Shown piece by piece: positions 31,375 through 63,817 of a stretch of 64,000 bases of DNA. The stretch lies in the NCBI RefSeq assembly GCF_029581355.1, contig NZ_CP120849.1:3380501-3444500 (forward strand), read 5' to 3'. The DNA comes from Parabacteroides chongii. GTDB taxonomy: Bacteria; Bacteroidota; Bacteroidia; Bacteroidales; Tannerellaceae. The notes under the pieces are model-generated. The model was not told where the DNA came from, searched no databases, and saw only the letters and a program-made list of their open reading frames with translations. Every line of letters starts with the position of its first letter. Position 1 is the first letter of the stretch. Both the position numbers and the translations under genes were made by a program.

Positions 31375-31604
31375 AGTTCCTGCAGAACTATATCCTTTAT
31401 GTATTGGTTAAATTATTGTTATTTAGTGGTTTAATGTTTTTGGTACGTTCTTTAGTTAAAGCAGGTTAAGTTAAATGATGCGTGGTTATTTAACGTTTGA
31501 ATATGTTTTTCTGAAGAAAGAATCTAAATTTTAAATATTTATAGCATATATATTAAAAAAGCGCTATATTTGCAACGTAATTATTAAATAGTTCTGCAGG
31601 AACT
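31375..31604. promoter_or_regulatory. Candidate invertible (phase-variable) promoter region of susC
   Basis: AGTTCCTGCAGAACT (31375-31389) and its exact reverse complement AGTTCTGCAGGAACT (31590-31604) flank 200 bp. Each has the form AGTTC-N5-GAACT. I recall this consensus for one class of B. fragilis invertible promoters in front of SusC/RagA genes; it is not checked here. The only TAnnTTTG box, TATATTTG at 31565-31572, points toward the right, away from susC (minus strand, start 31328). No box facing susC is seen between 31329 and 31845. Inversion would put it about 80 bp before the susC start. The repeats start 47 bp from the susC ATG. A 7-bp stem, GTTAAAT/ATTTAAC, lies inside (31470-31494). 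Confidence 0.8.
31565..31572 (+). promoter_or_regulatory. -7 promoter box inside the susC invertible segment, now facing right
   Basis: TATATTTG matches TAnnTTTG. In this orientation it directs transcription toward the ABC-F gene, 18 bp from the right inverted repeat. Confidence 0.65.
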
Positions 31605-47882: not shown

Positions 47883-50800
47883 TTAGCGCACCATCACCTT
47901 TTCGGTCTTGACTGCATCGGCATTGCCTTTGGCGCGGACGATGTAGATACCTTTCGGCAGGTTGAAAGTATGTTGTGTTGTATTGACCTTCATCTCTTTG
48001 ACCAGCGAGCCATTCAGAGAGTAGACCTTGATGTTGCGTACTTCCTCGGTTGAGGAGACAATCACTTTACCGTTTTTGACGGAGTAGATGGCGATTGCGT
48101 TCGTGTCGATGCTTCCGGTGGCAGAGCTGCGTAGATAGTAGCGTCCGTGGCTTTCGCCGGAGAGGTCTAGCGTATAGCTGTCGCCTTCCAGCAGGGTGCT
48201 GCTGCGGGTGTAGCTATCGTAGAGGTAGAGCGGTTCGGCCAGTTGGGAGATACCTTCGATGGTGAGGCTTACGTCTCCCTTGCGGCTGTTGTAGACACCT
48301 ACCGGGATGTTGTCGATGCTGCGCAGGGCATTCACCTGTGCGGTGCGGTTACCGGCAACGGAGTAGGCTACCGGTGCATCCAGTTCGGAGTCGAGCAATA
48401 CCACGGCATCCTCCTGCGGCTGATAGGCGTTGTCGGCATTGTCACGCAGGGTGATTACCGAGCGACCTTTCTGTCCGTCACGTTCGGCAGTCAGCGTGAG
48501 CACGGGGGCGGTGGCTGCGTGGGAGCGGGTAGAGGGAGTTGCTTTGGCTGACGGTTTGGCTGCCATCATGTCGGTTGTGAATGTAATCTTTACTTCCTCT
48601 TTGTTTGTTTCTTCTTCTTCCGCTTGTGTTTCTTCCGGCTTTTCCTCTCCTTCATTATAACCAGCGCGTTCAACAAAGAAAGCAGTCATAGGTAGAATCA
48701 AGCCGGTCATATTGTTGCCATTTTCCGTTGCGCCAGTCCAAGGTATATCCGGAGTGCCAACAATCGCTTGTGTAGTGTTTGATTCTGTATCTATAATCCA
48801 GTATTTCCTATTTAAAGAACTGTTTTGCTTGAAGAATTCTTCCATATTCAAATAAGTCATATACGGATTACCGACCAAGAAGTGGTTGCCGTCGCTATCT
48901 TTTTCAGGAGTGAAGGTAACTTCCACTGCTGCTTTGTCTGCCATTTTACCATACTTTTCTCGGCTTGTTGGAGCAGGAGAAAGTCCGGCACGAGTCTGTG
49001 GTTCCGCTTCTTCGTAGTTGTAGGTCTTATCTGCTTTTGGCAGACGCACCAAAACATTCTGTTCTTCTACGCGGGCATAGAAACCTGTACCCAACGCGTA
49101 AGGAACCCAAACATCGTTATATTCGATGCTCCAGTTAGATTTGACGGCGTTTGCACTACCGGTTTTGTTTTCATGATCTTGATAAGCTACCGACTTATCC
49201 CAAGCCTTTTGATAGAAAGCTGGATTCCAACGGCTGTTGGTGACTCCTGTTTGATTATATGTGATATCTTCAAAAGCAGGAGTAACTTGTTTTCCTGCTG
49301 TACTAAGATCATTACCAACTTGTTTCGGAGCATACATATCTCCCGCATACACATCATATAATGGAGACGACTGCCAGTAAGGCTGGCTTTCTTTCATTTC
49401 AAACTCTACGCGTGCTGTTTGATAATCCAAGAAATGCTGGTTCATCAACGTTGCTTTGGGCTTGAAGTAGATTTGGTCTACCCTATTAATGTAGTAAGGC
49501 TTTACTACTATTGCACCATTTTCTCCCGTGTTGTTGACAGCCATGTCGTATTGAATTGTGCTATTTGAATCTGTAATTTTCAATACACCATTGTCTTTTT
49601 CTGTCAATTCTTCATCATCCTCAAGAGCCAACTCTTCATCTTCCAACACGGTTACTTTGGTGAAGTATAGGGGGGAGAGTTGGTTGGTTTTCGTTTCGCC
49701 AACTCCAATCTGATCGCTATACAACTCGTCTTTGGTGGATGCATACCAGTTCTTATCGTTATACCAAACAGGGTTGTCTTTGCTAGGAGACCATGTGAGG
49801 TATTCGGGAACGATCTTGATTCGGAGGTAAGCGTAGCCCTCGCAGGAATTAGGTATCAATTCTGCGTCTTCAATATCTTCTGTGGAAGCATATTGATATT
49901 CCCCGAAAGGAAAATAAAGATCATAAATTCCCCCTTCTTTGAAGTAGGTTGGTATATCCTTCTCCTCCAAAGTAAAAGTTAATGACAAAGAATTGTTTTT
50001 GTTATCCTGTTGCGCTATCAAAGAGTTTAATGTTCCAATTACCTGATACGTGTTATAATCTCTTAAGTAAACATTTTTGTTATTTTCTAGTGCTTTTAGT
50101 ACATATTTCATTGAAGCATCTTCTTCGTTATCAGATTGCTCAGGCATTCCGAACGTAATCTCTTTTTGAATCGGAACAGTCAATGTCGTTTTGTTTTCTA
50201 TGTGTGCAAGTCCTAAACGTAGCGGTACGGTATTTAATGGTATATCCTTCGGATAGTCTATATTTCCGAAACCAACATTTAGTGTAGGCACATTCGATTC
50301 CGCAGCCAATTCAAGTTCCTGAGGTTCTGTACAGAACAACTTCTTGGTTTCTCCTTCCGCTGGTAGATCTAGGTCATTACCATCACTACCCACGTAAGGC
50401 ATAGCCGTTACTTTGGCTACCCAACGGAAAGAGGGAGATTTACCAAATACGAGTTTCGGTTCTTCCGTACTGCTGCCTATCAGATCTTTTAAGATTGCTT
50501 TTGCATCATCATCAATAGCTTTAGATTTTTCCACATCTTCGACTGTAAAGTTTGCAACTTTCTCTTCAGCTGTGTTGCCTAGTCCATCACGGAATGCTTT
50601 CAAAAGTGCTTGTAATGTATTATGCCCAGTGTTCTCTACTCGCTCGTTAGCCTCTTTCTCTGAGCCTAAATACCAATCAAAGGTGTATTTATATTCCTCT
50701 TTTTCATACCATGTATCAAAGTCAACCATCTCTTCACCCGTCACATTTCCAACTTTGTCTACCGGAGTGACCATCAGATTTGCATTTAAGGTATGGATAG

Positions 50801-53756
50801 AACCTTCACAAGTAACGCCGGTTGCCGATGTTTCTGTATCGACTTTGATTGTGATGGAGGGACTTACATAGATGACCTTCTTTAAGGCACATGGGGTATT
50901 TAAGCCGAGTACATCTTCTACAGCTGGGGCATCAGGATCGGTAGGCTCGCTCGGTTTGTTAGGATCTTCTGACTCTGCGATCTGTTTTGCGCTGAATAAT
51001 ACCACATAATATCTTCCTGACGCAGACGGTTCCACCGTATTGCCATCTTCATCCTTATAGATTTCGCCAGCGAAACGCAAGTCGGTATTATGCACGTCTA
51101 TTTCGCTTAAGTATAACATTGCATTGTCCCCACTTCGCCAAGGGCAACGGATACGGGGGATGCCTAAACAGATGAAGAGGTCGCGGGCTGCTTTTTCATA
51201 TGTTGCATATTCTGTGCTAGTAGGATTCATGATCTTATCCACATACACTTCTGTTACCAACAGAGGATTACCAATAGTTGCCGCATCTGTGGAGGTACTC
51301 CCGTCTCGCTTGCATAAGTTACTTATGATATTTTCCAAGTCTTCCACATGTGGATCATTTTTAAACCTCTCGTTCAGATCTGAGTTTCGCTTCAAATCCT
51401 CCAAGAAGTCATTCATGGCATGTACATTCATTGTGATTTCAAGTTTCTTGGCTTCTTCCTGAGTTTTAGGAACCCATAATCTTCCATCTCCATCGGTATA
51501 CTTTTTCATATCCGTTTGAGCAGCTACACGCATGACATATTGTAGTCTGTTCAGTACTTCTGTATCTTCTTCTGGCTTGACTAACTCATCGTCATGTGTA
51601 TGATCAACCAAGTCTTTATTGACTGAAATCCAGTTTCCTACATCTCCGTTTTCTTGTATCTCGGTAAATGCGAAGTACACATTACCAATGTTCGGGTGCA
51701 TAATATCATCTACGGCTGCGTAGGGGTCGTTACCCATCAAGCCATAGCGGTATTTTCTGTAGTTGAAGTCTTGTAGCTGATCTTTATCAATCACATCCGA
51801 AGAAATATCCCACGTCATATTGCTCTGTAGTGTTTGATAGTCGGTGCTGACCATCAATACGGAGGCATCGCAAGCGTCTTCTCGCTGGGCGGTGATGGCA
51901 GGAAGTGTGCTATAGACGGAGATATCATCGATACCGAAGTCGGCACCGTTGGAACTTTCGCAATTGCTGGATATCTCCAGGATAAAATTATCCGTATCCT
52001 TGATGTCTGTCTTCGAGAAGGAAAATTTGAAAGAGACTCGTTGCCAAGCGGCAAAATCACCATTATCCTTTGTCCCTATAGCCCCACTATAATATTTAGC
52101 AAGGATGGTTTCTGTGTTATTCTCTCCTTTTCCTTTCAGGGTAAATCCTATATTGGCAGGGGTTCTGCCGGTGCCAGATGTTACATCACAAACCCATGCA
52201 TTTACAATCAAGCTTGTATTCGGGCAAAGTCCGCTAATTGGTATTTTTGTAATGACACCAGGGGTTTCAGAGGCATCAACGTACATGAAATATCCGGATT
52301 GCTGACCGTTTTCCTTTTCCCATAGGCGGTCGGTGACCCATTGGTCGTATTGTGCTGGAAAATAATCGGAATATTCACCATCTTCGCGATTATATCGGAT
52401 AGTAGGTAAGTTTGGATCATTACGTCCATGTCCTTCTGTAGAATATGAAATATTCGGATAGTTCAACGTTCGATATAAAGCATATTCGCCTTTCATAACT
52501 TTTAAGTCATTACCATATCTATATTGATACATCTCCGGATGGGCAAAGGCGTAATAAGACTCTACCTCTCTTTCTTCTCCTTCTATCTCTGTAGTGAAGA
52601 CTTCTGTTTTGACATTTTTTAGTGGGTCATTTGTTAATAGATTCACTATATTTTGCTCATTGTTGTATAAAATCTCGTCTTCTGTCTCAAAAGAGATACG
52701 TGCCAATCTTTTATATAAGGTTGTATTTGCTTCTAAGTCATCTTCAGTAATTCCGGAATCATCAACCATGGTGACGTTCAGGAAGGATACTGGATACCAA
52801 TCTGTATATGTTTGGGTGCTATTTCCCCCACGAACCTCTGCTAAAATACATGCTTTCTTGACATTTGTTGTAAATTCGTAGTTAATAATATTATTCGTTT
52901 TAGTAGAATATTTGACATCTGGATTGTTCTGATTAGGCTGGTTGCCCGTATAAGGAGACCTTGTATCCCAGTTAATGCCATCATTACTCGTATTTATCTT
53001 CCAACGTATCTCTGTCGCTTTTACCGTATTTTCATTATCATCTTGAATATAATAATTGTCTAAATCTTCCGGTAATCTGAAATTAGATGCTTTACCTTTT
53101 GGCATATATATGTCATAGGCATTTAATACATAGTTTGATTCTTTTCCTTGCTCTTTCCTTAATGGTGTAAGATCATTACTATTCTCTTTAATGCCTAATG
53201 ACTCGAATTCTGTTAGCTTTGTTTTTAATAACGTTGCCCTTTCATTTGCATTCCTTAATTCATACACATGGCGGACACCGATAACTAGAGGAACAAGCGT
53301 GCCATTGCCTGATTGTGTTCTATCTGCCGCTACCGAACTGACCTCGTAAACAAGTTTCATTCCATTGCGTATATCTTCTGCACTGAATGTACAGCTTATA
53401 CTTGCTGCGTTTCCGAGCTTTTGATTATTATTCGTGGCATACCATCCATAACTATTACCATATTGGGTTAATTTAGAATTATAGTTTACTGTTGGTTCTA
53501 AACGGTCGTCTATCTCCACTGTATTATTATCTTTATCTATGACATACCATCTGACATAACCATCCATTCCTGTACTTTCACCGGTCTCCTGAAAACTTAC
53601 TGTCTTTGGCTCACCCGGATCTACATACAGCACATCCATAATCGTATGATCCGCTTTCACCGAATAGAAATCATTTTGCCCCCAAGCGTCCCCCGCACCT
53701 GCCATCAACATCAGGCAAGTGAGGATTAGTATATTATATAATGTATAGTGTTTCAT
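47883..53756 (-). CDS. Giant surface adhesin-like protein with type IX-like C-terminal domain
   Basis: A 1957-residue protein with a signal peptide (about 1-27, ending DAWGQ) and long beta-rich repeats; a galactose-binding-like region may lie near 550-680 (NAWVCDVTSGTGRTPANIGF). The last about 75 residues (NAIAIYSVKNGKVIVSSTEE to GIYIVRAKGNADAVKTEKVM) look like a type A sorting domain of the type IX secretion system. The start at 53756 is decided by a strong AGGAGG site 8 bp before it (unusual here) and is one base after the stop of the gene above; a GTG at 53765 is less likely. As last gene of the fimbrial operon it may be a tip or adhesin. Confidence 0.82.
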   Translation of the reverse strand: MKHYTLYNILILTCLMLMAGAGDAWGQNDFYSVKADHTIMDVLYVDPGEPKTVSFQETGESTGMDGYVRWYVIDKDNNTVEIDDRLEPTVNYNSKLTQYGNSYGWYATNNNQKLGNAASISCTFSAEDIRNGMKLVYEVSSVAADRTQSGNGTLVPLVIGVRHVYELRNANERATLLKTKLTEFESLGIKENSNDLTPLRKEQGKESNYVLNAYDIYMPKGKASNFRLPEDLDNYYIQDDNENTVKATEIRWKINTSNDGINWDTRSPYTGNQPNQNNPDVKYSTKTNNIINYEFTTNVKKACILAEVRGGNSTQTYTDWYPVSFLNVTMVDDSGITEDDLEANTTLYKRLARISFETEDEILYNNEQNIVNLLTNDPLKNVKTEVFTTEIEGEEREVESYYAFAHPEMYQYRYGNDLKVMKGEYALYRTLNYPNISYSTEGHGRNDPNLPTIRYNREDGEYSDYFPAQYDQWVTDRLWEKENGQQSGYFMYVDASETPGVITKIPISGLCPNTSLIVNAWVCDVTSGTGRTPANIGFTLKGKGENNTETILAKYYSGAIGTKDNGDFAAWQRVSFKFSFSKTDIKDTDNFILEISSNCESSNGADFGIDDISVYSTLPAITAQREDACDASVLMVSTDYQTLQSNMTWDISSDVIDKDQLQDFNYRKYRYGLMGNDPYAAVDDIMHPNIGNVYFAFTEIQENGDVGNWISVNKDLVDHTHDDELVKPEEDTEVLNRLQYVMRVAAQTDMKKYTDGDGRLWVPKTQEEAKKLEITMNVHAMNDFLEDLKRNSDLNERFKNDPHVEDLENIISNLCKRDGSTSTDAATIGNPLLVTEVYVDKIMNPTSTEYATYEKAARDLFICLGIPRIRCPWRSGDNAMLYLSEIDVHNTDLRFAGEIYKDEDGNTVEPSASGRYYVVLFSAKQIAESEDPNKPSEPTDPDAPAVEDVLGLNTPCALKKVIYVSPSITIKVDTETSATGVTCEGSIHTLNANLMVTPVDKVGNVTGEEMVDFDTWYEKEEYKYTFDWYLGSEKEANERVENTGHNTLQALLKAFRDGLGNTAEEKVANFTVEDVEKSKAIDDDAKAILKDLIGSSTEEPKLVFGKSPSFRWVAKVTAMPYVGSDGNDLDLPAEGETKKLFCTEPQELELAAESNVPTLNVGFGNIDYPKDIPLNTVPLRLGLAHIENKTTLTVPIQKEITFGMPEQSDNEEDASMKYVLKALENNKNVYLRDYNTYQVIGTLNSLIAQQDNKNNSLSLTFTLEEKDIPTYFKEGGIYDLYFPFGEYQYASTEDIEDAELIPNSCEGYAYLRIKIVPEYLTWSPSKDNPVWYNDKNWYASTKDELYSDQIGVGETKTNQLSPLYFTKVTVLEDEELALEDDEELTEKDNGVLKITDSNSTIQYDMAVNNTGENGAIVVKPYYINRVDQIYFKPKATLMNQHFLDYQTARVEFEMKESQPYWQSSPLYDVYAGDMYAPKQVGNDLSTAGKQVTPAFEDITYNQTGVTNSRWNPAFYQKAWDKSVAYQDHENKTGSANAVKSNWSIEYNDVWVPYALGTGFYARVEEQNVLVRLPKADKTYNYEEAEPQTRAGLSPAPTSREKYGKMADKAAVEVTFTPEKDSDGNHFLVGNPYMTYLNMEEFFKQNSSLNRKYWIIDTESNTTQAIVGTPDIPWTGATENGNNMTGLILPMTAFFVERAGYNEGEEKPEETQAEEEETNKEEVKITFTTDMMAAKPSAKATPSTRSHAATAPVLTLTAERDGQKGRSVITLRDNADNAYQPQEDAVVLLDSELDAPVAYSVAGNRTAQVNALRSIDNIPVGVYNSRKGDVSLTIEGISQLAEPLYLYDSYTRSSTLLEGDSYTLDLSGESHGRYYLRSSATGSIDTNAIAIYSVKNGKVIVSSTEEVRNIKVYSLNGSLVKEMKVNTTQHTFNLPKGIYIVRAKGNADAVKTEKVMVR

Positions 53757-53757
53757 A

Positions 53758-55440
53758 TTATTCACCTCCTTCTATCTTTACTTCTTTATTCGTCACAACC
53801 AATGTATAAGGCAACACCACTTCGGCCCCGTCCTTCTCTGCCACTAGCACCAGCTTGATTGTTGCGCTGGCCGTGTTGCTTAGCTCTTGCAGGTTGATGG
53901 TGAAAGAGCCTTTGGTAGTGGACTCTGCACCGCTTGCTGGGTGTAAGGGAAATGCACAATCCGGTTGTTGTTGGTGTCCATTCGCACTTTTTTCCCACCA
54001 CGATAAAGGGTCCTGATCTTTCGTTTCCGGTTCTATCAAATAGCCGTTGCCATTCAGATCCTTTGTGTTTTCTTCCAGTGAGGCATAACAGAAATGGTCT
54101 GTTCCTTCGACTTCGCCATCTCCACCTTCGTCTTGTGTTTTGTAATATTTCAAAGACCAGTCGTTTGTGTTATTATTCAACTTCTCCAAGCTATACGTAA
54201 TCGTTACCTCTCCTGCATGGTTGGTGACGAAAGTGCGTGAAGCGATCTCTATACCTTCTAAAAATGTATATCGCTTCGGCACTCCCCCAATCGGCATATG
54301 CTTCTGCTCGAACCCAATCTTTACTTCAGCATCGGAGATGAGGATAGGTATATTCAACAGGTCGTTGCGGCGGATGAAGGAGAAATCCGTTATTTTAGGC
54401 TCTTTCTTCTCTGTCTCAAATTCCAGCACGTCGAGAGCAATTGTCATATAAGCTCCGTTGTCACCTACGCTTGCCTGATCGGTTTCGTTGATGTAGAAGG
54501 TGTAGGGGGTAGGGATGGCAGTGGATGCTATTGTTTTTTCCTGCTCGGTTGGAGTATATACATAATCACTTCCGGATACTGGAGGTGTCTGAGGCGGGAA
54601 TTTAGGATTCATCAACATTTGGTCGCTCTCTCCCTGTTGTATCAATAGGTTTTCCTTCTCCGGATCGTCCTCTGCCGCATCATAAGGCAACAGCCAAATG
54701 CTTCCTGATTGGCGGAACTTGCCCATTGTTATGTTATTTATTGTAACATTGTTGCCCGTGGCATTCGTTACCTCCACCTTCACTTTGCCCAACAGACGGA
54801 TTAGTGAGAGGGAAACATTGTTATCGGTTTCCTTGTCGGAGACGATTTTAGACTTCATGTAGCTGCTCATGGGGATGTACTGTTGCTTGTTATTGGTATA
54901 TTCGGTGAGTGCTAGCAGTGTTGCTTCCGTATCTCTGAAGTCGGAGAATGTCTTGCTTGCTGTAACTAAACTTTCCAGTTCCTCGATAACTGTCTCCCCA
55001 TTCTGCAAATGCTTCAAATTAGCAAACGCATAAAACCGGTATGTTTCGCCAATCAATAGCTCTACGCCTACTTCATGCGTATTGTTGTTGTCATCTAATT
55101 GTTTACCAACATCTCCTAAGGTATTCGACAATACTTGTTCGACCTTATCCTTGTTCTTATTGCCATCATTCACGACAACAATCCACCAGTCATCGATATG
55201 GCGTTCATATTCCTCATCGTCTTCTTCGCCGGAAATGTCATTGTCGGCATCGCCGTCGGCTCGCGTATAGCTGGGGGTGGAGTTGTCTAATCCGCCCAGC
55301 GTAATCGTCAGCTTCGCGTACTTTGTTTCGGGTATTTCCGGCTCGCCGCCATTCTCCTTCGAGCAGGAGGGGAGCAGAAATAGCAAGAGCAGTAGCGTGG
55401 GGGCTACTGCTTTTACGGTTTTATATATGTTATGTTTCAT
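53758..55440 (-). CDS. Fimbrillin-like lipoprotein, third fimbrial component
   Basis: A 560-residue predicted lipoprotein (start MKHNIYKTVKAVAPTLLLLLFLLPSCSKEN, Cys at about 26). The first part resembles the fimbrillin fold (ETKYAKLTITLGGLDNSTPS and DDWWIVVVNDG). Charged linkers (GEEDDEEYERHIDD) follow, then beta-rich domains to about 540. It lies between the Mfa2/FimB-like gene and the giant adhesin gene, where Mfa3/FimC-E-type accessory subunits occur. I cannot assign which. The frame allows a GTG start at 55464 overlapping the gene above, but the ATG at 55440 gives a clean signal peptide. Confidence 0.75.
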   Translation of the reverse strand: MKHNIYKTVKAVAPTLLLLLFLLPSCSKENGGEPEIPETKYAKLTITLGGLDNSTPSYTRADGDADNDISGEEDDEEYERHIDDWWIVVVNDGNKNKDKVEQVLSNTLGDVGKQLDDNNNTHEVGVELLIGETYRFYAFANLKHLQNGETVIEELESLVTASKTFSDFRDTEATLLALTEYTNNKQQYIPMSSYMKSKIVSDKETDNNVSLSLIRLLGKVKVEVTNATGNNVTINNITMGKFRQSGSIWLLPYDAAEDDPEKENLLIQQGESDQMLMNPKFPPQTPPVSGSDYVYTPTEQEKTIASTAIPTPYTFYINETDQASVGDNGAYMTIALDVLEFETEKKEPKITDFSFIRRNDLLNIPILISDAEVKIGFEQKHMPIGGVPKRYTFLEGIEIASRTFVTNHAGEVTITYSLEKLNNNTNDWSLKYYKTQDEGGDGEVEGTDHFCYASLEENTKDLNGNGYLIEPETKDQDPLSWWEKSANGHQQQPDCAFPLHPASGAESTTKGSFTINLQELSNTASATIKLVLVAEKDGAEVVLPYTLVVTNKEVKIEGGE

Positions 55441-55453
55441 GATGATAATGTTT

Positions 55454-56617
55454 TTATAGTTCACCTTGGTTGATTCGGATGACCCAGTCTTTCACCTGGA
55501 CTTTCAGGCAGGTGTAGCGTACGATGGGGACGTCGGGATCCGGTACAGGGTCCGGATCAGGGTCCGGATCAGGTTCGGGATCCGGTTTGTCCGGATTTTC
55601 GGGGTCCGGGTCTTCCGGGTCGGGATCTTCGGGACCAGGATCAGGCTCCTCAGGATCGGGATCCGGTTTGGGGTCGGGGCAATCCGGGCAGTAGGTCGGG
55701 GTCAGGAAGAAGACGATGGAGTATTCGTCCTGGCGGTCGAGGTATTCCTGTGCGCTGATGGCGTGGCCCTCCATCTGGGTAAGGAGCAGGTAATTGTTGA
55801 GGTTGATGTTGAGCACGTCCTTTTCCCAGTCTTTGTGGCGCACGATGAGGCGGTAGTTTTCGCCTGCCATCAGACGCATGGTGTTCATTTCTGCTACGGC
55901 GACGGTCTGCATGGCGGGCTTGCCCATGATGCTGTCGCCCTCGGCGATGTTGACGTTTTTAGTCATGTAAGGGAGGTAGGTGATTACAGGGTCTTCGAGC
56001 AGGCTGTTGTCGTAGTCCATATATCCGTTGTCTGCCTTGATCTCGAAAGTGAAATCGCGTACGTCCATGCAGTTGCCGTCGGTGTCCTGCAAGACGAAGC
56101 GCAGTTTGTTTGTGTTTTTTGCGAGGCTGATGGTTTTGTCTTCGTGTTTGTCGCGCGTGATGACCAGTGTGTCGAGGCTGTGCCACAGGGGTGAGAGTTC
56201 GTCCCGTTGCGTAGCATCGGCTTCACGTAGGGTGCGCAGGCGCAGATCCTGTAGCGTGGTCGTGCCGGGGGTGAGTTCCGGCATGGAGTAGGACTGTTCG
56301 CTCAGGCCTGCCCAGGTGACGGTGTAGTAGGTACCCGGTTCGAGGTCGAGCTTGATATTGTTTGCTTTCAGGGCGTTGCCGTTGAAGTCTTGCTGCATGA
56401 TGTAATTACCTTTGTTGTCGCAGATAAACAATGTGGCCCGTTCGACCTCATGCTGGAAAGCGTCGGCAAATTTCATGTTGTAATCGTAGACGAAGTGCAG
56501 CCGGTATTCGCAAGGTTTGAGCGAATCGTCGGAGAAGTAATCGCAGGCTGTCAACCCCATGCCTGCTATCATCATCGTTCCGATTGTTTTTGTAAATCTT
56601 GTTGCTATATTTCTCAT
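55454..56617 (-). CDS. FimB/Mfa2-family fimbrial anchor lipoprotein with Pro-Asp linker
   Basis: A 387-residue lipoprotein (signal ending GMGLTACDYFSDD). The Mfa2/FimB pattern appears in CEYRLHFVYDYNMKFADAF, then LEPGTYYTVTWAGL and the two-domain beta body. Family members stay in the outer membrane and fix the fimbrial base, controlling length. Near residues 310-365 is an insert with many PDP/DPD/DPE repeats. After it comes only a last strand, VRYTCLKVQVKDWVIRINQG. The insert lengthens the path to the final strand, which may donate to the fimbrial polymer. It is cotranscribed with its neighbours. Confidence 0.85.
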   Translation of the reverse strand: MRNIATRFTKTIGTMMIAGMGLTACDYFSDDSLKPCEYRLHFVYDYNMKFADAFQHEVERATLFICDNKGNYIMQQDFNGNALKANNIKLDLEPGTYYTVTWAGLSEQSYSMPELTPGTTTLQDLRLRTLREADATQRDELSPLWHSLDTLVITRDKHEDKTISLAKNTNKLRFVLQDTDGNCMDVRDFTFEIKADNGYMDYDNSLLEDPVITYLPYMTKNVNIAEGDSIMGKPAMQTVAVAEMNTMRLMAGENYRLIVRHKDWEKDVLNINLNNYLLLTQMEGHAISAQEYLDRQDEYSIVFFLTPTYCPDCPDPKPDPDPEEPDPGPEDPDPEDPDPENPDKPDPEPDPDPDPDPVPDPDVPIVRYTCLKVQVKDWVIRINQGEL

Positions 56618-56748: not shown

Positions 56749-58782
56749 TTAGAGAACGATGTTGTCGTTCTTACGCTCTTTCCAGTTCAATACGTTAACA
56801 TTTACGTTGAAGTAGAATGTCGGGCTTTCCGGATCTACTGGCGGGTCTGTCACTTCTGAACCCGGTAGTCCCCATCTGCCAACCTTAGTTACTGTCAAGT
56901 CGTAGATGTTGTTACGAACGATTGCAAACTCCATAATACCTACGCTACTAACATCATTGTTATTAGCATGCTTAATCCAGTAAGGATAGTAGCAAACGCC
57001 ATCTTCGAATACGCTTACTAATTTGTTGAATATGGCTGCTCCTTCAGCTGATTTCAAGTAATCAGGAAGATTTGAGGCTCCTAAAGTCTCAAGTGTTGTA
57101 TTCTCTTCCACTTGCTGACCGTCTACAGCGTTGTATTCGTCTATCTTTTTATTTAGATATGCGATATACCCGAACGGGTCAGCAACATTTAAAGCGCCTT
57201 TTATATTGGAGTACAGGATGGTCTTAGCTTCCGCTTTGAATGTTTCATATGTAATATTATTTACCTGTTCAGTTGTCATAACTTGATTAAAGATAGCTTG
57301 TTCGCTTTCGTAGACATTGCCTTGGTAGACGCAGAAAGTTGTACCATCGCTGTCTTTATCCAAATCTGCATAACCGTTACCACTATCTCCACCAGCGTCA
57401 TACACCACCGTCTGACCAACCGTGCCAGCATTATTCACCCACACTTTCGGGAAATAAACAGCTTTAAACAAAGCACCGGTAACATATCCTTTTTTAGAAA
57501 GGGTTTGATCAGCAATGTTTTCCATCGGGTAGCCGAGGGTTATTTGACTAGGTATTGTAGTTTCTGATGATTGGGCAAGAGCTATTGTATTCTGTAATGC
57601 GGTTACCGCGCCTGTACTTGTTGCTTGATCTGCTGCTCTTCCTCCCCACAAAATATCATAAGTAATTCCACCTTGGAAGTAGTTGGTATATGTTAACGTC
57701 TTAGTTGCACTCCCAATCGGCTGAGTAACGCCTGCTGCCTGGATCTGATCCAACTCTAGTAAAGCTATTGCATCGCCTGCCCCAGTAGTTTTTTTCCCTC
57801 TTGTCCAAGGATCAACTACATAATTCTCTGCTGCATTGGCTGAACCTTCTTCGTCTCCCAAATAAATATCATTGGTGTCATCATCTCCTAATTCATCATC
57901 CTGATCACCACCTGTTACTCGTTTCAGCAAATAAGAGCCACTGCTCAGATTGTTTATGAGAGCTACGTGGTCCAGGCGGGCTTTACCGAGTTCAGTGTTG
58001 CCATCTGTACCTACTTTATGTGTATAAAAGAAATCATAACCATCCTGCGTAGGAGTAGTAATCGGATTCAATCTCACCTTTGCAGCCAAGCGTTCTACAT
58101 GGAGAGCGGTAGTTCTTTCTTCTGCAGCACTCTCGTTTGCGTGTAAAGTGACTTTTTCTCCTTCTTCCTTATGGGAAGACATGATAAAGTTTTCATTACT
58201 AGTGTGTGCTTTATCCACTAAATAGTTGGCAAGGACCTCACCGGTTGTTATTTGGGGATTTGTTGTTCCTTGTTTAGTCACCAAGTTATATAAAGTCTCA
58301 CCCATATTAGCCACAGTAATTACTCCGTAGGTATTGCCGTCGAAAGATTCTCCCTGCTGGGTAACACTCACTTCAACCATCACTCCGTGTTTATGCCAAT
58401 CATCATCTCCATTTGTCTCTGCGCCGGCAGTTGCATAACCGGCTCCTACAATAGTAGAGGTTTTCACCAGTTTATATTCATTTCCAGTGGTGGCACTTGT
58501 ATTCTTAAAAAGAATCAAGGTTACATTATTTATTTTGTATTCATTTGCAGTACCTTCTTCTCCATTCGGGGTATCACCATCTTCTCCGGCAGTGGGAGGG
58601 ACAGCAGGATCACTATCGGCCTTTGTCTCCACTCCGTTATTGATGGCAATTTTCACGTAGCCTTTTTCTCCACTACCTTCAGTTCCATTTCCTTTGCCCG
58701 ACTCATCCAAATCATCCGAGCAAGACACCGCTGCGCAAGCGAAAGCGAGTGCCCATAATGTACTTTTAAGTTTCATATTCAT
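56749..58782 (-). CDS. Mfa1-family major fimbrial subunit
   Basis: A 677-residue lipoprotein precursor (MNMKLKSTLWALAFACAAVSCS; Cys at about 21). After a low-complexity Glu/Gly/Pro region (ESGKGNGTEGSGEKGYVK, about 26-95), it has the Mfa1-type fold (NEYKINNVTLILFKN, TALHVERLAAKVRLNPI) and a C-terminal strand FYFNVNVNVLNWKERKNDN. Major subunits of this family are exported as lipoproteins, cleaved after an Arg/Lys by a gingipain-like protease, and polymerise by donor strand. It is 131 bp from the anchor gene and shares its strand with HU-HIG, OmpA-like and DUF3575 genes. Confidence 0.88.
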   Translation of the reverse strand: MNMKLKSTLWALAFACAAVSCSDDLDESGKGNGTEGSGEKGYVKIAINNGVETKADSDPAVPPTAGEDGDTPNGEEGTANEYKINNVTLILFKNTSATTGNEYKLVKTSTIVGAGYATAGAETNGDDDWHKHGVMVEVSVTQQGESFDGNTYGVITVANMGETLYNLVTKQGTTNPQITTGEVLANYLVDKAHTSNENFIMSSHKEEGEKVTLHANESAAEERTTALHVERLAAKVRLNPITTPTQDGYDFFYTHKVGTDGNTELGKARLDHVALINNLSSGSYLLKRVTGGDQDDELGDDDTNDIYLGDEEGSANAAENYVVDPWTRGKKTTGAGDAIALLELDQIQAAGVTQPIGSATKTLTYTNYFQGGITYDILWGGRAADQATSTGAVTALQNTIALAQSSETTIPSQITLGYPMENIADQTLSKKGYVTGALFKAVYFPKVWVNNAGTVGQTVVYDAGGDSGNGYADLDKDSDGTTFCVYQGNVYESEQAIFNQVMTTEQVNNITYETFKAEAKTILYSNIKGALNVADPFGYIAYLNKKIDEYNAVDGQQVEENTTLETLGASNLPDYLKSAEGAAIFNKLVSVFEDGVCYYPYWIKHANNNDVSSVGIMEFAIVRNNIYDLTVTKVGRWGLPGSEVTDPPVDPESPTFYFNVNVNVLNWKERKNDNIVL

Positions 58783-58993: not shown

Positions 58994-59434
58994 CTATTCG
59001 ATTACGGGGCGGTCGTCCTCTTCTTCTTTTGTCGTGTTGTCTTTCTTTACGCGGGTGAAGGTCATCGCGCTGCGGACAGCTTGTATCACCTTGCCGGGAA
59101 GGAATGAGACGGACGGCTTCTTCATCATCGTGGCGGCGTCGAACTCGTCTTCGGTGGCGGCTCCCTTGCTGCCCACGGTGGGGCGGAAGGTGCCCAGCTC
59201 GCCGACTTGCACCGTACGGCCCTCCTTCACGTGGCGGGCTATATGCCTGGGCAAGCGGTCGAGACAGGATTTGACATCGGCACTTGTCAGCGCCGTTTCT
59301 TCGGCAATGCCTTCACAGAGTTCTTCGAAACCGACAGTTCCGTTGTTCACCAGTTGGGCAAAATACTTGACCGCATCTTCCGGTGCGTCTTTGGAGAAGT
59401 CTTTGCGCTTCACCAGTTTGTACTTGGCACTCAT
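58994..59434 (-). CDS. HU-HIG-type DNA-binding protein
   Basis: A 146-residue protein of the Bacteroidetes HU-HIG type. The HU-like core (KYKLVKRKDFSKD, about residues 4-16, and CLDRLPRHIARHVKEGRTVQVGELGTFRPTVGSKG, about 58-92) is longer than E. coli HU and has an acidic tail (KEEEDDRPVIE). Such proteins bind or bend DNA and may silence or compact it. It is the fourth gene of the fimbrial transcript, between the OmpA-like and Mfa1-like genes. The six 23-bp repeats lie just after it. Confidence 0.86.
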   Translation of the reverse strand: MSAKYKLVKRKDFSKDAPEDAVKYFAQLVNNGTVGFEELCEGIAEETALTSADVKSCLDRLPRHIARHVKEGRTVQVGELGTFRPTVGSKGAATEDEFDAATMMKKPSVSFLPGKVIQAVRSAMTFTRVKKDNTTKEEEDDRPVIE

Positions 59435-59474: not shown

Positions 59475-60902
59475 TTATCGCATCAGCTTCACGAGTTCCA
59501 GGTTGGCAGTTGCGGCTTCGGACACTTCCGGTTGGGAGGTGAGGCGACTGAGTGCCGTTTCGGCATCGGCCCATCGTTCGTCGAGCATTAAGAGGATCGC
59601 TTCGGCCAGCTCCTTCTGGGCGGAAGGGGCGGCTTTGGCGAGGTAGCGTCGCGCCTTGTCGGCCTGGCGGTTTTGCAGGGCGATGTTGGCGGCATTGAGG
59701 TTCGAAACGGGGTCGTCGGGATACATGCGGACGGCTATTTCGAACACTTCCTTAAATTCGTCGCTTCCCGCCGGATAGGTCAGCGCCACACGGTGCATCT
59801 CTTCGAGGCTGAGCTGCGAAGGGTCGCGGTAGATGATGTCGCGGGCTTCGTCGACGGTGAAGTTGCGTATGTTGTATTCCACCACATAGTCGGAATGACG
59901 CAGGGCGGGGTAGATGTCTGCCAGGATTTGCTTGTAGGCTGGGAGTTGCTTCAGCTTCCATTCGCGGGCGTCCGGGTCGGCGGGTTGGTCGGCACGGATG
60001 ATGGCGAGGGCTTCGTCGCGGCCTTCGTTCGTGGAGGCGGCGAGGCGGGTCGCCAATCCTTCCCAGTCTTCGGGCACGGAGGTTACGTCGCAGGGCACGT
60101 TGCTGAAGTCGTACAGCTCTTTCACGTAGGCAAGCAGGGCCTGGGCGCGTCCTTCCGCCAGGCGCCGGTTGTTGGCGTAGGCGCCTTCGGGTGAGGCGAA
60201 GCCTTTGATTGCCACGTGTGTGATGGTGGCGTTGCTATTGCTTTTGACTGTCTCGATGGTGTTACGTATGGCAGCGAGTTCGCCGGGATTCTTGCGGTAT
60301 TCGGGGCGGATCGCGGTGCTGCCGACGGGGAAGTCCAAATAGGCTTGCCCGTTGAGGGCGCGGCGTTTCACGGCTTCGGCTGCCGGGGCGATGAAGGCGG
60401 GGACAGGCTTGACCTCGGGCATCGACAGGTTGACGACGAAGAGGTGTGCCTTTTCGTTCTGAAGGTTCTTCCAGCCACAGCCGCAGAGGTCGGTCACCAT
60501 CGACACGTCGGCGCGGTTCATCCATGGGCGGTAGGGCACTTTCACGAGGTAGTCTACCTGTTGCTCGGCGTTGTTTTTGCGGCGTACTACCACTTCGCCG
60601 GGCTGCACGAGGGCTTTACCGTCGCGGCGTTCGTAGGCTATTTGGCGGGTGCGACCGTTGACTACCAGTGGGGGCAGTGCGAGCAGGCTGTCGCCTTTTT
60701 GTAGGAGAGGGGTGCAGACCACGGTGCGGTTGCTGCCCAGCTGCATCTGGCTGATGTCGATATGCATGTTCACCACCAGGTCGTTGCCGGAGCGTTGCAC
60801 GGACTGGCGTTCGACGGTGACGGGCGACTGCGCTTGCAGGGCTGAGGCTGCGCACAATCCCATCAATAGAGTGCTTATAGTCTTTTTCATCATACGGTTC
60901 AT
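59475..60902 (-). CDS. DUF3868 domain protein with OmpA-like C-terminal domain
   Basis: A 475-residue exported protein (signal MMKKTISTLLMGLCAASALQAQ). The DUF3868 domain (about 28-155: SPVTVERQSVQRSGNDLVVNM, PWMNRADVSMVTDLCGC) is followed by an OmpA/MotB-like peptidoglycan-associated part (about 200-280, NATITHVAIKGFASPEGAYANNRRLAEGRAQALLAYV), then a TPR-like C-terminus (VSNLNAANIALQNRQADKARRYL). Proteins of this kind accompany fimbriae in Bacteroides and presumably link the outer membrane to the cell wall. It is 9 bp after the DUF3575 gene, so in the same operon. Confidence 0.9.
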   Translation of the reverse strand: MNRMMKKTISTLLMGLCAASALQAQSPVTVERQSVQRSGNDLVVNMHIDISQMQLGSNRTVVCTPLLQKGDSLLALPPLVVNGRTRQIAYERRDGKALVQPGEVVVRRKNNAEQQVDYLVKVPYRPWMNRADVSMVTDLCGCGWKNLQNEKAHLFVVNLSMPEVKPVPAFIAPAAEAVKRRALNGQAYLDFPVGSTAIRPEYRKNPGELAAIRNTIETVKSNSNATITHVAIKGFASPEGAYANNRRLAEGRAQALLAYVKELYDFSNVPCDVTSVPEDWEGLATRLAASTNEGRDEALAIIRADQPADPDAREWKLKQLPAYKQILADIYPALRHSDYVVEYNIRNFTVDEARDIIYRDPSQLSLEEMHRVALTYPAGSDEFKEVFEIAVRMYPDDPVSNLNAANIALQNRQADKARRYLAKAAPSAQKELAEAILLMLDERWADAETALSRLTSQPEVSEAATANLELVKLMR

Positions 60903-60911
60903 TGTTTGTTG

Positions 60912-61502
60912 TTAGAATAGATAAATGAAGTTGAGTGCTGCCTGCGTGGGTCCGAAGTAGTTTTTGTGTCGGTTCGTCTCGCGGTTGCCGCATTCGGCAC
61001 AGGGGTAGCGGTCGTATTCGAAGTAGATGTAGCCTACGCCCACGGTAGCCTCCAGGCTCCAGTGTTTGGAGAGCATCCACTGGTAGCCGTAGCTCAGGCC
61101 TACGCCTGCTCCCCAACCTTCGCGACGTTCGCCTTCGAGGTCGAGCAGTTTCACGTCGGCTACATTATATAAATAGTAGGGGACGTGCAGACCGAGGAAA
61201 TGTCCGTTGTTTGCTTCGCAGAACCAGTAGCGCAGTTCGGGCTGAATGCGCAGGTGCTTGAGCGAGCGGTCGTAAGTGCCGTCGTCGTTTTTGCCGTCGA
61301 AGGGGTTGAAGCCGGCTTCGATGTCGAGGCTCCATTTCTTGGCCAGGCGAAATTCCAGTCCGGCGTTGAAGGTGGCTGTTCCCCAATAAGGGAGGTTTGT
61401 TTTGATGCCAACTACCGGCGCCTTGCTTTCGGGTACTAGTGTCTGAGCTGAAAGAGTAGAGACCAGGAAGCTGAAAATCAGTAAGAGGAAGTTCTTCATC
61501 AT
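60912..61502 (-). CDS. DUF3575 family outer-membrane beta-barrel protein
   Basis: A 196-residue protein with a signal peptide (MMKNFLLLIFSFLVSTLSAQ). It shows VVGIKTNLPYWGTATFNAGLEFRLAKKWSLDIEAGFNP, typical of DUF3575, and ends with an aromatic residue (NFIYLF) as outer-membrane beta-barrel proteins do. WGAGVGLSYGYQWMLSKHWSLEATVGVGYIYFEYDRY gives further strands. It is a small eight-stranded barrel by appearance. It follows the HU gene by 21 bp at the head of the fimbrial operon. Confidence 0.88.
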   Translation of the reverse strand: MMKNFLLLIFSFLVSTLSAQTLVPESKAPVVGIKTNLPYWGTATFNAGLEFRLAKKWSLDIEAGFNPFDGKNDDGTYDRSLKHLRIQPELRYWFCEANNGHFLGLHVPYYLYNVADVKLLDLEGERREGWGAGVGLSYGYQWMLSKHWSLEATVGVGYIYFEYDRYPCAECGNRETNRHKNYFGPTQAALNFIYLF

Positions 61503-61523
61503 ATAGCTGTTATTTATGGGTTT

Positions 61524-61829
61524 TTATATTTGTTGATATTCCGGAGTCCGGTCGTTTTCGTTCAGCCGTTTCTTCAGGTCGCTGCCGACGGTGAATTTGA
61601 CAGTGAGAGAGGGATCGAGTATACAGGGATCTCCGTTCTGAGGGTTGCGTACAGGGCGGGGCTTTTGTCTCTTGGGTAAAAATGTACCGAAACCACGGAT
61701 GGATACTTCTTCATTCTGTTCCAGTACCTCCGTGATGGATTCAAGCAAGGTGTTGACGAATAGGTTGACCTTGTATTGGGGAATCCCTAACTTTTCAGAC
61801 ACTTTGGATTCAAGGGTTCTTTTATTCAT
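61524..61829 (-). CDS. HU family DNA-binding protein
   Basis: A 101-residue HU homologue with the conserved fold: NKRTLESKVSEKLGIPQYKVNLFVNTLLESITEVLEQNEEVSIRGFGTFLPKRQKPRPVRNPQNG and the basic arm, then a C-terminal DLKKRLNE. The DNA-binding arm (about residues 47-80) is intact. It is the first gene of the fimbrial transcript and its start is only 21 bp from the left inverted repeat of the invertible segment. HU/IHF-type proteins assist tyrosine recombinases, so this one might help the inversion next to it; that is inference. Confidence 0.92.
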   Translation of the reverse strand: MNKRTLESKVSEKLGIPQYKVNLFVNTLLESITEVLEQNEEVSIRGFGTFLPKRQKPRPVRNPQNGDPCILDPSLTVKFTVGSDLKKRLNENDRTPEYQQI

Positions 61830-61850
61830 ACTAGTGTGTTGTTTTATTAA

Positions 61851-62256
61851 AACTTATTTATGAAATAAGTTTTTCTACTACGAGAAAAACCACACTGAAG
61901 GGGAAAAACAGGAGACGATGAGACGGTTTTTTCTTTTATTTTATCTTTCGATTGTGTTTAAAAGAGTATAAATCTACTGTTATATTCATATAACAGCTGT
62001 TAAAACACAAGAAAGACTGACCGGTCATATTCTTATTGAAGCAAATACGATTATTACCGGCTAAAAATTGTAAATCATAAGTCAAAAACTAATACCCTAT
62101 TCTATTTATTCCCGATACACACAAAAAAAGTATCGATTTTTTCTTTCTTTATTCTTTTCTTTTTACCTTTGTGAGTGCCTAACTATTAGATGATTAGGCA
62201 AAATACAATAAGAATCAACGTTTATTACGCAATTATTCTTATTTCATAAATAAGTT
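61851..62256. promoter_or_regulatory. Candidate invertible promoter segment of the fimbrial operon
   Basis: AACTTATTTATGAAATAAG (61851-61869) is repeated exactly inverted at 62238-62256. The right copy overlaps the last four codons and stop of the recombinase gene. Each copy is also a palindrome. The 368 bp between hold one TAnnTTTG box, TACCTTTG at 62164-62171, pointing right (away from the operon on the minus strand), an upstream stem with T-run (CGATAC/GTATCG, 62113-62141) that could insulate the promoter, a 9-bp dyad (CTGTTATAT/ATATAACAG, 61977-61996), and a TGCCTAA/TTAGGCA stem at 62176-62200 just after the box. No minus-strand TAnnTTTG is seen here. Inversion would put the box about 107 bp before the HU start. 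Confidence 0.83.
62164..62171 (+). promoter_or_regulatory. -7 promoter box inside the fimbrial invertible segment, now facing right
   Basis: TACCTTTG matches TAnnTTTG. In this orientation it would transcribe into the recombinase gene from its 3' end, as antisense. Confidence 0.65.
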
Positions 62257-63227
62257 CCTTCAATCCCTCTCCAATCTATGTTTTTCGGTTTATTCCTCAG
62301 TATCTCACAAATCGGATCCGTGATCTTTCGATTGGCCAGGTCGAGTTCCGGCTGGTCAAGTCGGTTGAAGTAACCCCGGGTCGTTTTTTCGTTCGTATGT
62401 CCCAGTGCCTGACTGATCACGGCTATATCCACGTGCTGACGACGAGCTTCGGAGGCCCAGGTATAGCGCATTACGTAGGATGTCAGGTTTGTATGAATAT
62501 CCAACAACCGGCCCACCTGTTTCAAGGTTTCGTTATGGGCAGACAGCATAGACTTATACTGGTGGTGAGTGGCAGAAGGAAACATTATCGGGAAAAGGTA
62601 GTCCCTGTCGGATGATTCGTATTTACGGAGGATCTGCCACATGCCGGAGGTGATTTCGATGCGTATCCCGATACCGGTCTTATGGCGGTTATACACGATG
62701 GCTTGTCCATGTATATTCTTTCGGGTCAGATGCACTATGTCCACAAAAGGCATGCCGTATGCCATAAAGCTGAAAAGAGCCAAATCTGTTGCCAAAGCCA
62801 ATTCGGGGCGGTCACGAAAATCGACTGTCGCCATTTTTTTCACTTGTTGATCTGACAGAGGCTTTTTGACTGTTATGTCCCTCTTTAGTTTCAATTTCTG
62901 AAACGGCTGGGTCTTATTTTTGAAGAGTTGTTCGCCGACGGCTGCATTGTATACGGCTCGGAGACTGCTCAGATAGCTGTTGACAGAGTTGATTTTTAAT
63001 TGTTTGGCCTGTAGATAGGTTTGGAAATCGTTCACCATGGTAGGGGTGATGTCGCAGATTGGGATATCCTTGTTCCCCTGGAATGTGACGAAATGCCGGG
63101 CTACTGCCAGATAGAGATCAGCAGTGCTGTCTTTGCCTATCAACCGCTTGCTTTCTGCTCGCTGTTTGATATACTCATGTAGTAAAATACTTTTTTTCTT
63201 AGGGTTGCTTTCTTTTGTTGTTTCCAT
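62244..63227 (-). CDS. Tyrosine site-specific recombinase (candidate invertase)
   Basis: A 327-residue tyrosine recombinase. It has an N-terminal SAM-like DNA-binding domain (about 15-120, KSKLIGKDSTADLYLAVARHF-like) and the catalytic domain (about 140-315). The conserved Lys is in VYNRHKTG, box II has SYVMRYTWAS (Arg), the second His in LGHTNEKTT, and Tyr in RGYFNRLD. The box I region reads AYGMPFVDIVHL, where many Bacteroidetes relatives have ARGMxFVD, so the expected Arg is a Tyr. IntDOT-type enzymes also have a nonstandard Arg I. The stop lies inside the right inverted repeat of the segment, the usual layout of an invertase and its site. Confidence 0.85.
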   Translation of the reverse strand: METTKESNPKKKSILLHEYIKQRAESKRLIGKDSTADLYLAVARHFVTFQGNKDIPICDITPTMVNDFQTYLQAKQLKINSVNSYLSSLRAVYNAAVGEQLFKNKTQPFQKLKLKRDITVKKPLSDQQVKKMATVDFRDRPELALATDLALFSFMAYGMPFVDIVHLTRKNIHGQAIVYNRHKTGIGIRIEITSGMWQILRKYESSDRDYLFPIMFPSATHHQYKSMLSAHNETLKQVGRLLDIHTNLTSYVMRYTWASEARRQHVDIAVISQALGHTNEKTTRGYFNRLDQPELDLANRKITDPICEILRNKPKNIDWRGIEGTYL

Positions 63228-63334
63228 ACGCAGTTGTTTATATCAGAAATTACTAAGATATAAACCTTTTTGGGATGGGGATTGTTTGGGAGGGAAAAAA
63301 GAGTAGGTGTGTTCTGTTTTGCAAAACATTTATA

Positions 63335-63384
63335 ATATGGCACACAGGAATGCATATAACTTAAAAGCATCTGTGTGCCGTATT
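63335..63384 (-). terminator. Terminator after hslR
   Basis: ATATGGCACACAG and CTGTGTGCCGTATT pair (one mismatch) around a 23-base loop, downstream of the minus-strand stop at 63389. Confidence 0.7.
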
Positions 63385-63388
63385 CTTT

Positions 63389-63817
63389 CTATTCCTCTTC
63401 CGAATCAAAATCGAAATCAAAGTCGAAGCCGTCGTCCATTACTCCCGGATCAGTGAACTGTTCCAGTTCGCGACGGTCTTTCTTTGTCGGGCGGCCCAAG
63501 CCGCGGGCACGGTCTACGAAGCCGGAGATTTTGTTCATTTCCAGTATTTCGTATTGGTCTGGTGTCGTGACATTTTCCAGGTAGTCCGGAACCAGTTTGG
63601 CTCCCATCCGGCGTTCCGTCAGTGCCAGTACTTTGAAAGAGAAAGTTACAGGCGGCTTGCGCACCTGAATCACTTCGCCGACTTTGATCATGCGGGACGG
63701 TTTTACGGTGACATTGTTTATCATGACCCGGCTTTTTTTGCAGGCTTCCGCTGCGATTGTCCGAGTTTTAAAGATGCGGGTTGCCCACATCCATTTGTCT
63801 ATTCTTACTTCGTTCAT
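63389..63817 (-). CDS. hslR: S4-domain RNA-binding protein (Hsp15 family)
   Basis: A 142-residue RNA-binding protein. The S4 domain is at residues 3-65 (VRIDKWMWATRIFKTRTIAAEACKKSRVMINNVTVKPSRMI), as in Hsp15, which binds 50S subunits with a stalled nascent chain. The C-terminal tail is acidic (DDGFDFDFDFDSEEE) after a basic stretch GLGRPTKKDRREL. It begins 6 bp after the pth gene stop, so the two are cotranscribed, both serving translation quality control. A terminator follows. Confidence 0.92.
   Translation of the reverse strand: MNEVRIDKWMWATRIFKTRTIAAEACKKSRVMINNVTVKPSRMIKVGEVIQVRKPPVTFSFKVLALTERRMGAKLVPDYLENVTTPDQYEILEMNKISGFVDRARGLGRPTKKDRRELEQFTDPGVMDDGFDFDFDFDSEEE

Follow-up and report, generated by a model that had tools for sequence, protein, structure and literature searches.

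A fimbrial operon next to a tyrosine recombinase gene

Positions are those of the window, the whole 64,000-nt stretch of Parabacteroides chongii DNA that was analyzed. A tyrosine recombinase gene lies there beside a run of genes on the same strand (Table 1) with the composition of a Mfa-type (type V) fimbrial operon: a Mfa1-type major subunit, a Mfa2 anchor, and DUF3575 and DUF3868 genes. The first of these genes encodes a small HU/IHF-type protein. HU was considered as a marker specific to switches of this kind and was rejected because its matches were generic (1598 records).

Table 1. Features of the recombinase and fimbrial locus, listed from the recombinase to the last gene considered.
Feature	Position	Strand	Remarks
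Tyrosine recombinase, 327 aa	62244..63227	-	Phage_int_SAM_5 and Phage_integrase, Pfam above cut-off
Right inverted repeat (putative crossover site, recombinase side)	62238..62256	-	encodes recombinase T-Y-L and stop
Candidate Bacteroidales-type -7 box TACCTTTG	62164..62171	+	points away from operon as found
Candidate terminator: 6-bp stem, 11-nt loop, then T6	62113..62142	+	weak
Most conserved cassette block, CTGTTA/TAACAG dyads	61930..62037	.	90.7% to P. faecis over 108 nt
Left inverted repeat (putative crossover site, operon side)	61851..61869	+	near-palindrome
HU/IHF-type DNA-binding protein, 101 aa, first operon gene	61524..61829	-	
DUF3575 outer-membrane protein	60912..61502	-	
DUF3868 protein	59475..60902	-	weak OmpA match
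HU-HIG DNA-binding protein	58994..59434	-	
Mfa1-family fimbria major subunit	56749..58782	-	NF038041, 141.6 bits vs cut-off 130
Mfa2-family anchor subunit	55454..56617	-	
568-aa protein, possibly fimbrial accessory or tip by position	53758..55464	-	no Pfam/NCBIfam match at E 0.001
1960-aa protein, last gene considered	47883..53765	-	C-terminal T9SS sorting domain

The region between recombinase and operon is bounded by inverted repeats that are exact over 19/19 bp, with 368 nt between them, and that delimit a segment of 406 bp. The left copy stands 21 nt before the ATG of the HU gene (61829), and the recombinase stop codon (TGA, complement of 62244-62246) falls inside the right copy. When 61500-63000 was shuffled 1000 times with dinucleotides preserved, no exact inverted repeat separated by 100 nt or more exceeded 15 bp, and that length arose once, which rejects chance as the origin of the pair. 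The whole window held only two exact inverted repeats of at least 14 bp at a spacing of 100-3000 nt, this pair being the longer, and the 19-bp site occurred in the window at up to two mismatches as just this one pair. Each copy is itself near-palindromic (CTTATTT-ATG-AAATAAG).

The preliminary description of this DNA had missed the palindromes and, inside the cassette, the conserved block at 61930-62037; its placement of the repeats, over the recombinase stop and just before the first operon gene, was borne out in the sequence. It had also claimed that inversion would leave the recombinase reading frame unchanged. When the 406-bp segment was inverted in silico, the 327-aa protein came out letter-identical; with two identical sites, of which the right one holds the end of the gene, the same recombinase protein would be encoded in both states.

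The repeats persist in P. faecis and, more loosely, in P. distasonis

The repeats had been expected to be kept in relatives that retain the recombinase, and this held when it was checked in P. faecis (L001). Its recombinase is 80% identical, making it the nearest named DNA relative (the best protein match listed was 99% identical), and its repeats (8973-8990 and 9368-9385, exact over 18 bp) lie in the same places. Along 418 nt, the P. faecis cassette is 77% identical to that of the window, and the two are oriented alike. The gene order there is recombinase, repeats, an HTH-repeat gene, DUF3575, DUF3868, fimbrillin and Mfa2, the last four assigned by eye from the similarity of their translations to the window genes. 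The first gene encodes an HTH-repeat protein unrelated to the HU protein of the window; because it occupies the HU place, the switch appears to have been conserved while the gene behind it was exchanged.

Two loci of P. distasonis were more distant. At L013 (recombinase 45% identical), a site pair lies at the recombinase stop, ahead of DUF3575-DUF3868-Mfa1-Mfa2, and at L014 (40%), a repeat pair at the recombinase stop precedes a gene for an HU-domain protein and other genes. Across the eight sites of the four loci, the arms CTTATT/AATAAG were invariant and the 5-nt centre was identical within each pair, with three different centres among the loci: TATGA in the window and P. faecis, TATGG in L013 and CGCGA in L014. 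The L013 repeats thus kept the arms, in a looser form with a centre of their own. A near-palindrome with an asymmetric centre is the anatomy of a tyrosine-recombinase core site, and pair-specific centres within invariant arms are the behavior expected of strand-exchange sites.

The first gene behind three of these switches encodes a DNA-binding protein, each of a different kind: HU in the window, HTH-repeat in P. faecis (L001:9408-10508), and HU-DNA_bdg with DUF4469 in L014 (8308-9072). In L013, unlike these three, the first annotated gene behind the switch is DUF3575. The L013 switch also contains a palindrome-rich element of 57-65 nt with ACATGT half-sites (8300-8364). Similar copies (81-91%) occur in a further seven of the P. 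distasonis records listed, and in six of these the matched stretch carries no annotated gene; the element is a dispersed repeat. The comparison loci with NZ_OY7257xx accessions are labeled as plasmids, but their gene content suggests that they are chromosomal contigs of P. distasonis TSDC17.2.

The repeat search was then applied more widely. Recombinase matches fell in 84 records, of which 40 were listed, and 13 loci were taken (L013-L018, L022, L026-L031). The repeat test covered 14 loci, namely the window, L001 and 12 of the 13 (L018 was left out), each over a region that began 60 nt ahead of the recombinase stop and ran 1500 nt past it, and against 100 shuffles. Twelve of the 14 had an inverted repeat that was reached by 0/100 shuffles; in the remaining two, no repeat was found in L027, and the L030 repeat was equaled by 43/100 shuffles. 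Two of the loci, both with DUF3575 and a recombinase 34-35% identical, have repeats that enclose a whole gene for an AraC-type regulator (L015:6064-7319, an AraC-type HTH gene; L016:7971-9232, an AraC gene). With the regulator inside the repeats these represent a different layout, in which inversion would turn the regulator around and not only a promoter. For L013, L015, L016 and L017, a single record, their own, covered each locus. DUF3575 operons need not carry such a switch, since those of L023-L025 have no annotated recombinase within about 5 kb on each side.

One of the repeat pairs lies in a distant capsule locus with a 33%-identical recombinase. The segment beside that gene matched 20 plasmid records, 18 of which covered at least 80% of the query. 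We checked one record that matched in two pieces, B. uniformis pMMCAT (L032): 963/1101 positions were identical as is, and 1101/1101 once the segment bounded by the repeats had been turned around. At least one real inverton is thus among those that the repeat detector picks up, a result that concerns the capsule locus and neither the enzyme responsible nor the window cassette.

Searches for further relatives returned little. A single scan of genome contigs gave only P. faecis and a partial, 31%-identical Oscillospiraceae match; viral contigs held no relative of the recombinase and phage records no match, and a DNA search of plasmid records gave one partial match only. The 17-mer core of the site was present in ten viral contigs, once in each, which we take as chance matches of an AT-rich word.

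A promoter-like box faces away from the operon

As had been described, a promoter-like box lies between the repeats and faces away from the operon. It was called as a match of TACCTTTG to TAnnTTTG, which we take to be the Bacteroidales -7 consensus, and it is the sole such match on either strand of 61821-62260; within this interval none faces the operon. No TTTG/TTG at -33 was seen ahead of the box. The interior of the cassette is AT-rich and at least one TAnnTTTG arose in 420/1000 shuffles of it, so the box alone lacks significance. It is conserved in place in P. faecis, where its operon-strand form CAAAGGTA falls within an 11-column identical run. In silico inversion moves the box to 61936-61943 on the minus strand, 107 nt ahead of the HU-gene start.

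Together, the layout and its conservation suggest that the locus is very probably a local phase-variation switch for the Mfa-type fimbrial operon, operated by a tyrosine recombinase. The recombinase would exchange strands between the two 19-bp sites and thereby invert the 406-bp segment. As found, the cassette has a single recognizable promoter, which would read away from the operon and antisense to the recombinase gene, the presumed OFF state. Once inverted, the relocated box would drive HU-DUF3575-DUF3868-HU/HIG-Mfa1-Mfa2 and the genes that follow (ON). The earlier claim of a local ON/OFF switch for Mfa-type fimbriae gains from the cassette, repeats and orientation kept in P. faecis and from the arms kept in P. 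distasonis; the flipping itself we infer.

The cassette was probably captured OFF, the better reading given the single TAnnTTTG box and its conservation in place, although this is one short motif. In the 12 loci that passed the repeat test, the boxes between the repeats faced only the recombinase in eight (window, L001, L013, L014, L022, L026, L028 and L029) and only downstream in L017 and L016; L015 was mixed and L031 had none. If the box is taken as the guide, all four of the window, P. faecis, L013 and L014 would be in one and the same state, OFF, and the opposite orientation was not seen at this locus or in a close relative.

That shared orientation would also fit a segment that flips and was captured ON, with an operon-facing promoter of unrecognized type in 61930-62037 and TACCTTTG either a chance occurrence or an antisense element. 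The block in question is the best-conserved part of the cassette, and a TAnnTTTG by itself is expected in 42% of shuffled interiors. We nevertheless consider an ON capture unlikely, given that no TAnnTTTG points towards the operon, that the box is kept in place in P. faecis, and that the boxes of L013 and L014 face the recombinase 41 and 53 nt, respectively, inside the recombinase-side repeat. The single box of Alistipes L017, placed in mirror fashion 13 nt from the far repeat and facing the downstream genes, also speaks against it.

A hairpin and a conserved block within the cassette

A hairpin just upstream of the box had been proposed to stop readthrough from the recombinase when the cassette is ON. 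The hairpin (62113-62135, -5.8 kcal/mol) was equaled by 0/200 shuffles and is followed by T6 at 62137-62142; a simple terminator scan did not list it because the scan permits loops of 3-8 nt and this loop has 11. In the inverted isomer it would lie between the recombinase and the promoter box. The hairpin at the same place in P. faecis has a different stem, and its -4.1 kcal/mol was equaled by 22/200 shuffles. Due to this counterpart, which is not clearly above chance, the hairpin and T-run stand as observed while their role as an insulator in the ON orientation is graded as only possible, plausible but weak.

Conservation to P. faecis does not peak at the promoter box: it reaches 90.7% in 61930-62037 compared to 77.3% for the entire cassette. 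The block could serve as an operator or as an accessory site for recombination, or it could encode a small RNA. The region 61950-62145 folded somewhat better than shuffles (z -2.6, 5/200 as good), and a Rfam search of 61500-63500 returned nothing, leaving an RNA element in the block without family support. Among the loci compared, there was no second copy of the block beyond matches of up to 20 nt, and an exact 22-base word from it was absent from viral contigs.

The recombinase lacks the usual first catalytic arginine

The recombinase has the features of its family, with core-binding and catalytic domains, K183, R254, H277 and the nucleophilic tyrosine Y286. In an alignment of 23 homologues, R181, K183, Y251, R254, H277 and Y286 were invariant. 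Its profile match to XerA structures was weak. A local serine invertase of the Mpi type was rejected, the adjoining gene being a tyrosine recombinase; this verdict applies to the adjoining gene and does not extend to a distant-acting enzyme of the Mpi type.

The first catalytic arginine is absent from box I, which reads YGMPFVD, and in an alignment to the XerC-like structure 4a8e a proline lies opposite the XerA arginine. Among 120 listed homologues, the residue before the box I glycine was C in 66, Y in 29, F in 15, Q in 1 and W in 1, with the motif lacking in 8; arginine was found in 0/112 of those with the motif. The enzyme resembles IntDOT in missing this arginine and in having the invariant R181 two residues ahead of K183, a spacing to which R285/K287 of IntDOT presumably correspond. 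It differs from IntDOT in that Pfam shows core-binding and catalytic domains only, and in that its surroundings suggest that it serves an inverton and not the integration of an element. According to the accessible part of one source, IntDOT-group enzymes can do without the first catalytic arginine and use another one downstream (PMC8138268), and R181 would be the obvious candidate for such a substitute.

An AlphaFold model (23 sequences; 326 residues, without Met1) had a mean pLDDT of 84.5 and a pTM of 0.68. The pLDDT fell below 50 at model residues 279-287, around the nucleophilic tyrosine, and at 315-326, which include the last three residues encoded by the site.

The putative crossover site encodes the end of the recombinase

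The site sequence ACTTATTTATGAAATAAG reads T-Y-L-stop in one frame and L-F-M-K-stop in another, and with its stop changed to CGA it reads T-Y-L-R-N-K. We looked for these tails in 154 distinct proteins, obtained from the best 120 of 163 and the best 120 of 418 matches. Among these listed homologues, 39 ended in YL and 14 in L[LF]x[KEQ], and 8 had YLRN[KRE] within their C-terminal 60 residues. Clustering at 75% identity left 69 representatives, among which the counts were 19, 9 and 4, respectively, with 37 having none, so a tail resembling a site translation was present in 32/69 representatives, which share ancestry and are not independent. At internal positions used as a control, YL occurred in 66/3588, a figure that we read as inflated by the conserved catalytic-tyrosine motif, and L[LF]x[KEQ] in 6/3588. 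A crossover site may not be the origin of every L[LF]x[KEQ] end.

Because the residues just ahead of it vary, the tail looks dictated by the DNA and not by protein function. This protein-level evidence suggests that gene end and crossover site frequently overlap in this recombinase clade. A crossover site that writes the C-terminus of its recombinase is a small architectural novelty, and possibly a new one: a literature search, with most subscription papers outside its reach, returned no description of it. The signature may allow the target site of a recombinase to be predicted from protein sequence alone, which would be useful since invertases have so far been matched to invertons by proximity statistics, as far as the accessible text of the hCom2 survey goes (PMC11892184). 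In one homologue, P0042, two successive TYLRNK stretches occupy the C-terminal 25 residues, as if two copies of the site stood in frame.

A larger claim can be built on this overlap, although we regard it as speculative and unlikely: that recombinase and site form a fused unit, with a stop in two frames (-TYL-stop/-LFMK-stop), across much of a Parabacteroides-centred clade; that the antisense promoter of the OFF state feeds back on how much recombinase is made, skewing the ON/OFF ratio; and that the HU-type first gene would provide further feedback in the ON state.

The overlap bears on which enzyme would flip the segment. In Bacteroides fragilis a distant-acting master invertase, Mpi, is known (PMC5903667), and the consulted portions of the hCom2 survey include some large Bacteroides-dominated inverton groups without a significantly linked invertase group (PMC11892184). 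On this view the switch would be real, but most of the flipping would fall to a different recombinase of the cell, and the adjoining gene would act elsewhere or be a relic. We find this improbable: the gene is open and its motifs are invariant, site and gene overlap and occur together in P. faecis and, by the C-terminal signature, in many homologues, and the window holds only one pair of sites at up to two mismatches.

There is very little to be said for the repeats being two hairpin or terminator palindromes around the intergenic region instead of recombination sites: each copy is near-palindromic and the left one folds into an 11-bp stem with a U run on the plus strand (-6.2 kcal/mol), but the stem of the 19-mer itself is A/T-rich, the right copy folds weakly (-2.4 kcal/mol) and lacks a T-run, and terminators need neither identical 19-mers in exact inverted orientation nor a locus-specific asymmetric centre, nor would they have to persist at both ends in P. 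faecis.

Relation to known fimbrial switches

The E. coli fim switch has two tyrosine recombinases nearby, compared to one here; its site does not overlap a gene end, and it controls chaperone-usher fimbriae, which are unrelated to those of the Mfa or type V kind. A tyrosine recombinase at a B. fragilis phase-variable locus was reportedly the subject of a 2004 paper by Weinacht et al. The fim switch is outlined, in the text available to us, as a 314 bp invertible promoter segment for a fimbrial operon (PMC5903667), and the P. chongii locus resembles it in having a short, putatively invertible promoter segment ahead of such an operon. The same source names P. distasonis among the genomes with inversion signatures.

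Further parallels come from Bacteroidales. The B. fragilis locus is presented, in the accessible text, as phase-variable, with an adherent and aggregative phenotype and an ORF that matches a fimbrial protein (PMC12632263); the window locus, as a candidate phase-variable fimbrial locus, is like it in description. The hCom2 survey, in the parts accessible, reports an enrichment of fimbrillin genes in the vicinity of some inverton groups, nearby invertases that as a rule sit where the inverton promoter cannot drive them, and FimB/Mfa2 genes whose expression rose consistently in carrier-attached cultures through inverton orientation (PMC11892184). The window locus is like those invertons in its short inverted repeats, the candidate Bacteroides promoter motif inside, and the adjoining tyrosine-type invertase and fimbrial genes. 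The main text of the survey does not contain the word Parabacteroides and does not name this locus, and the main text of an in silico study of P. distasonis surface structures contains neither "phase variation" nor "recombinase" (PMC9409006). Invertons near fimbrial genes and invertases are already published, as far as these texts go (PMC11892184, PMC12632263), and the window locus is a further case. It offers a well-delimited, self-contained candidate fimbrial switch in a gut genus; since its recombinase, its sites and the candidate promoter have been located to single-base precision, its orientation can be read directly from metagenomes.

A second inverted repeat in the window

The shorter of the two repeat pairs in the window, AGTTCCTGCAGAACTAT, is exact over 17 bp (31375-31391 and 31588-31604, with 196 nt inside) and at up to two mismatches has just these two occurrences in the window. 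Near its right copy, a box read by eye, TATATTTG, lies on the plus strand at 31565-31572 and faces away from a gene pair for a TonB receptor (28263-31328, minus strand) and SusD (26581-28239, minus strand). This layout would fit a SusC/SusD promoter inverton that was captured in its OFF state.
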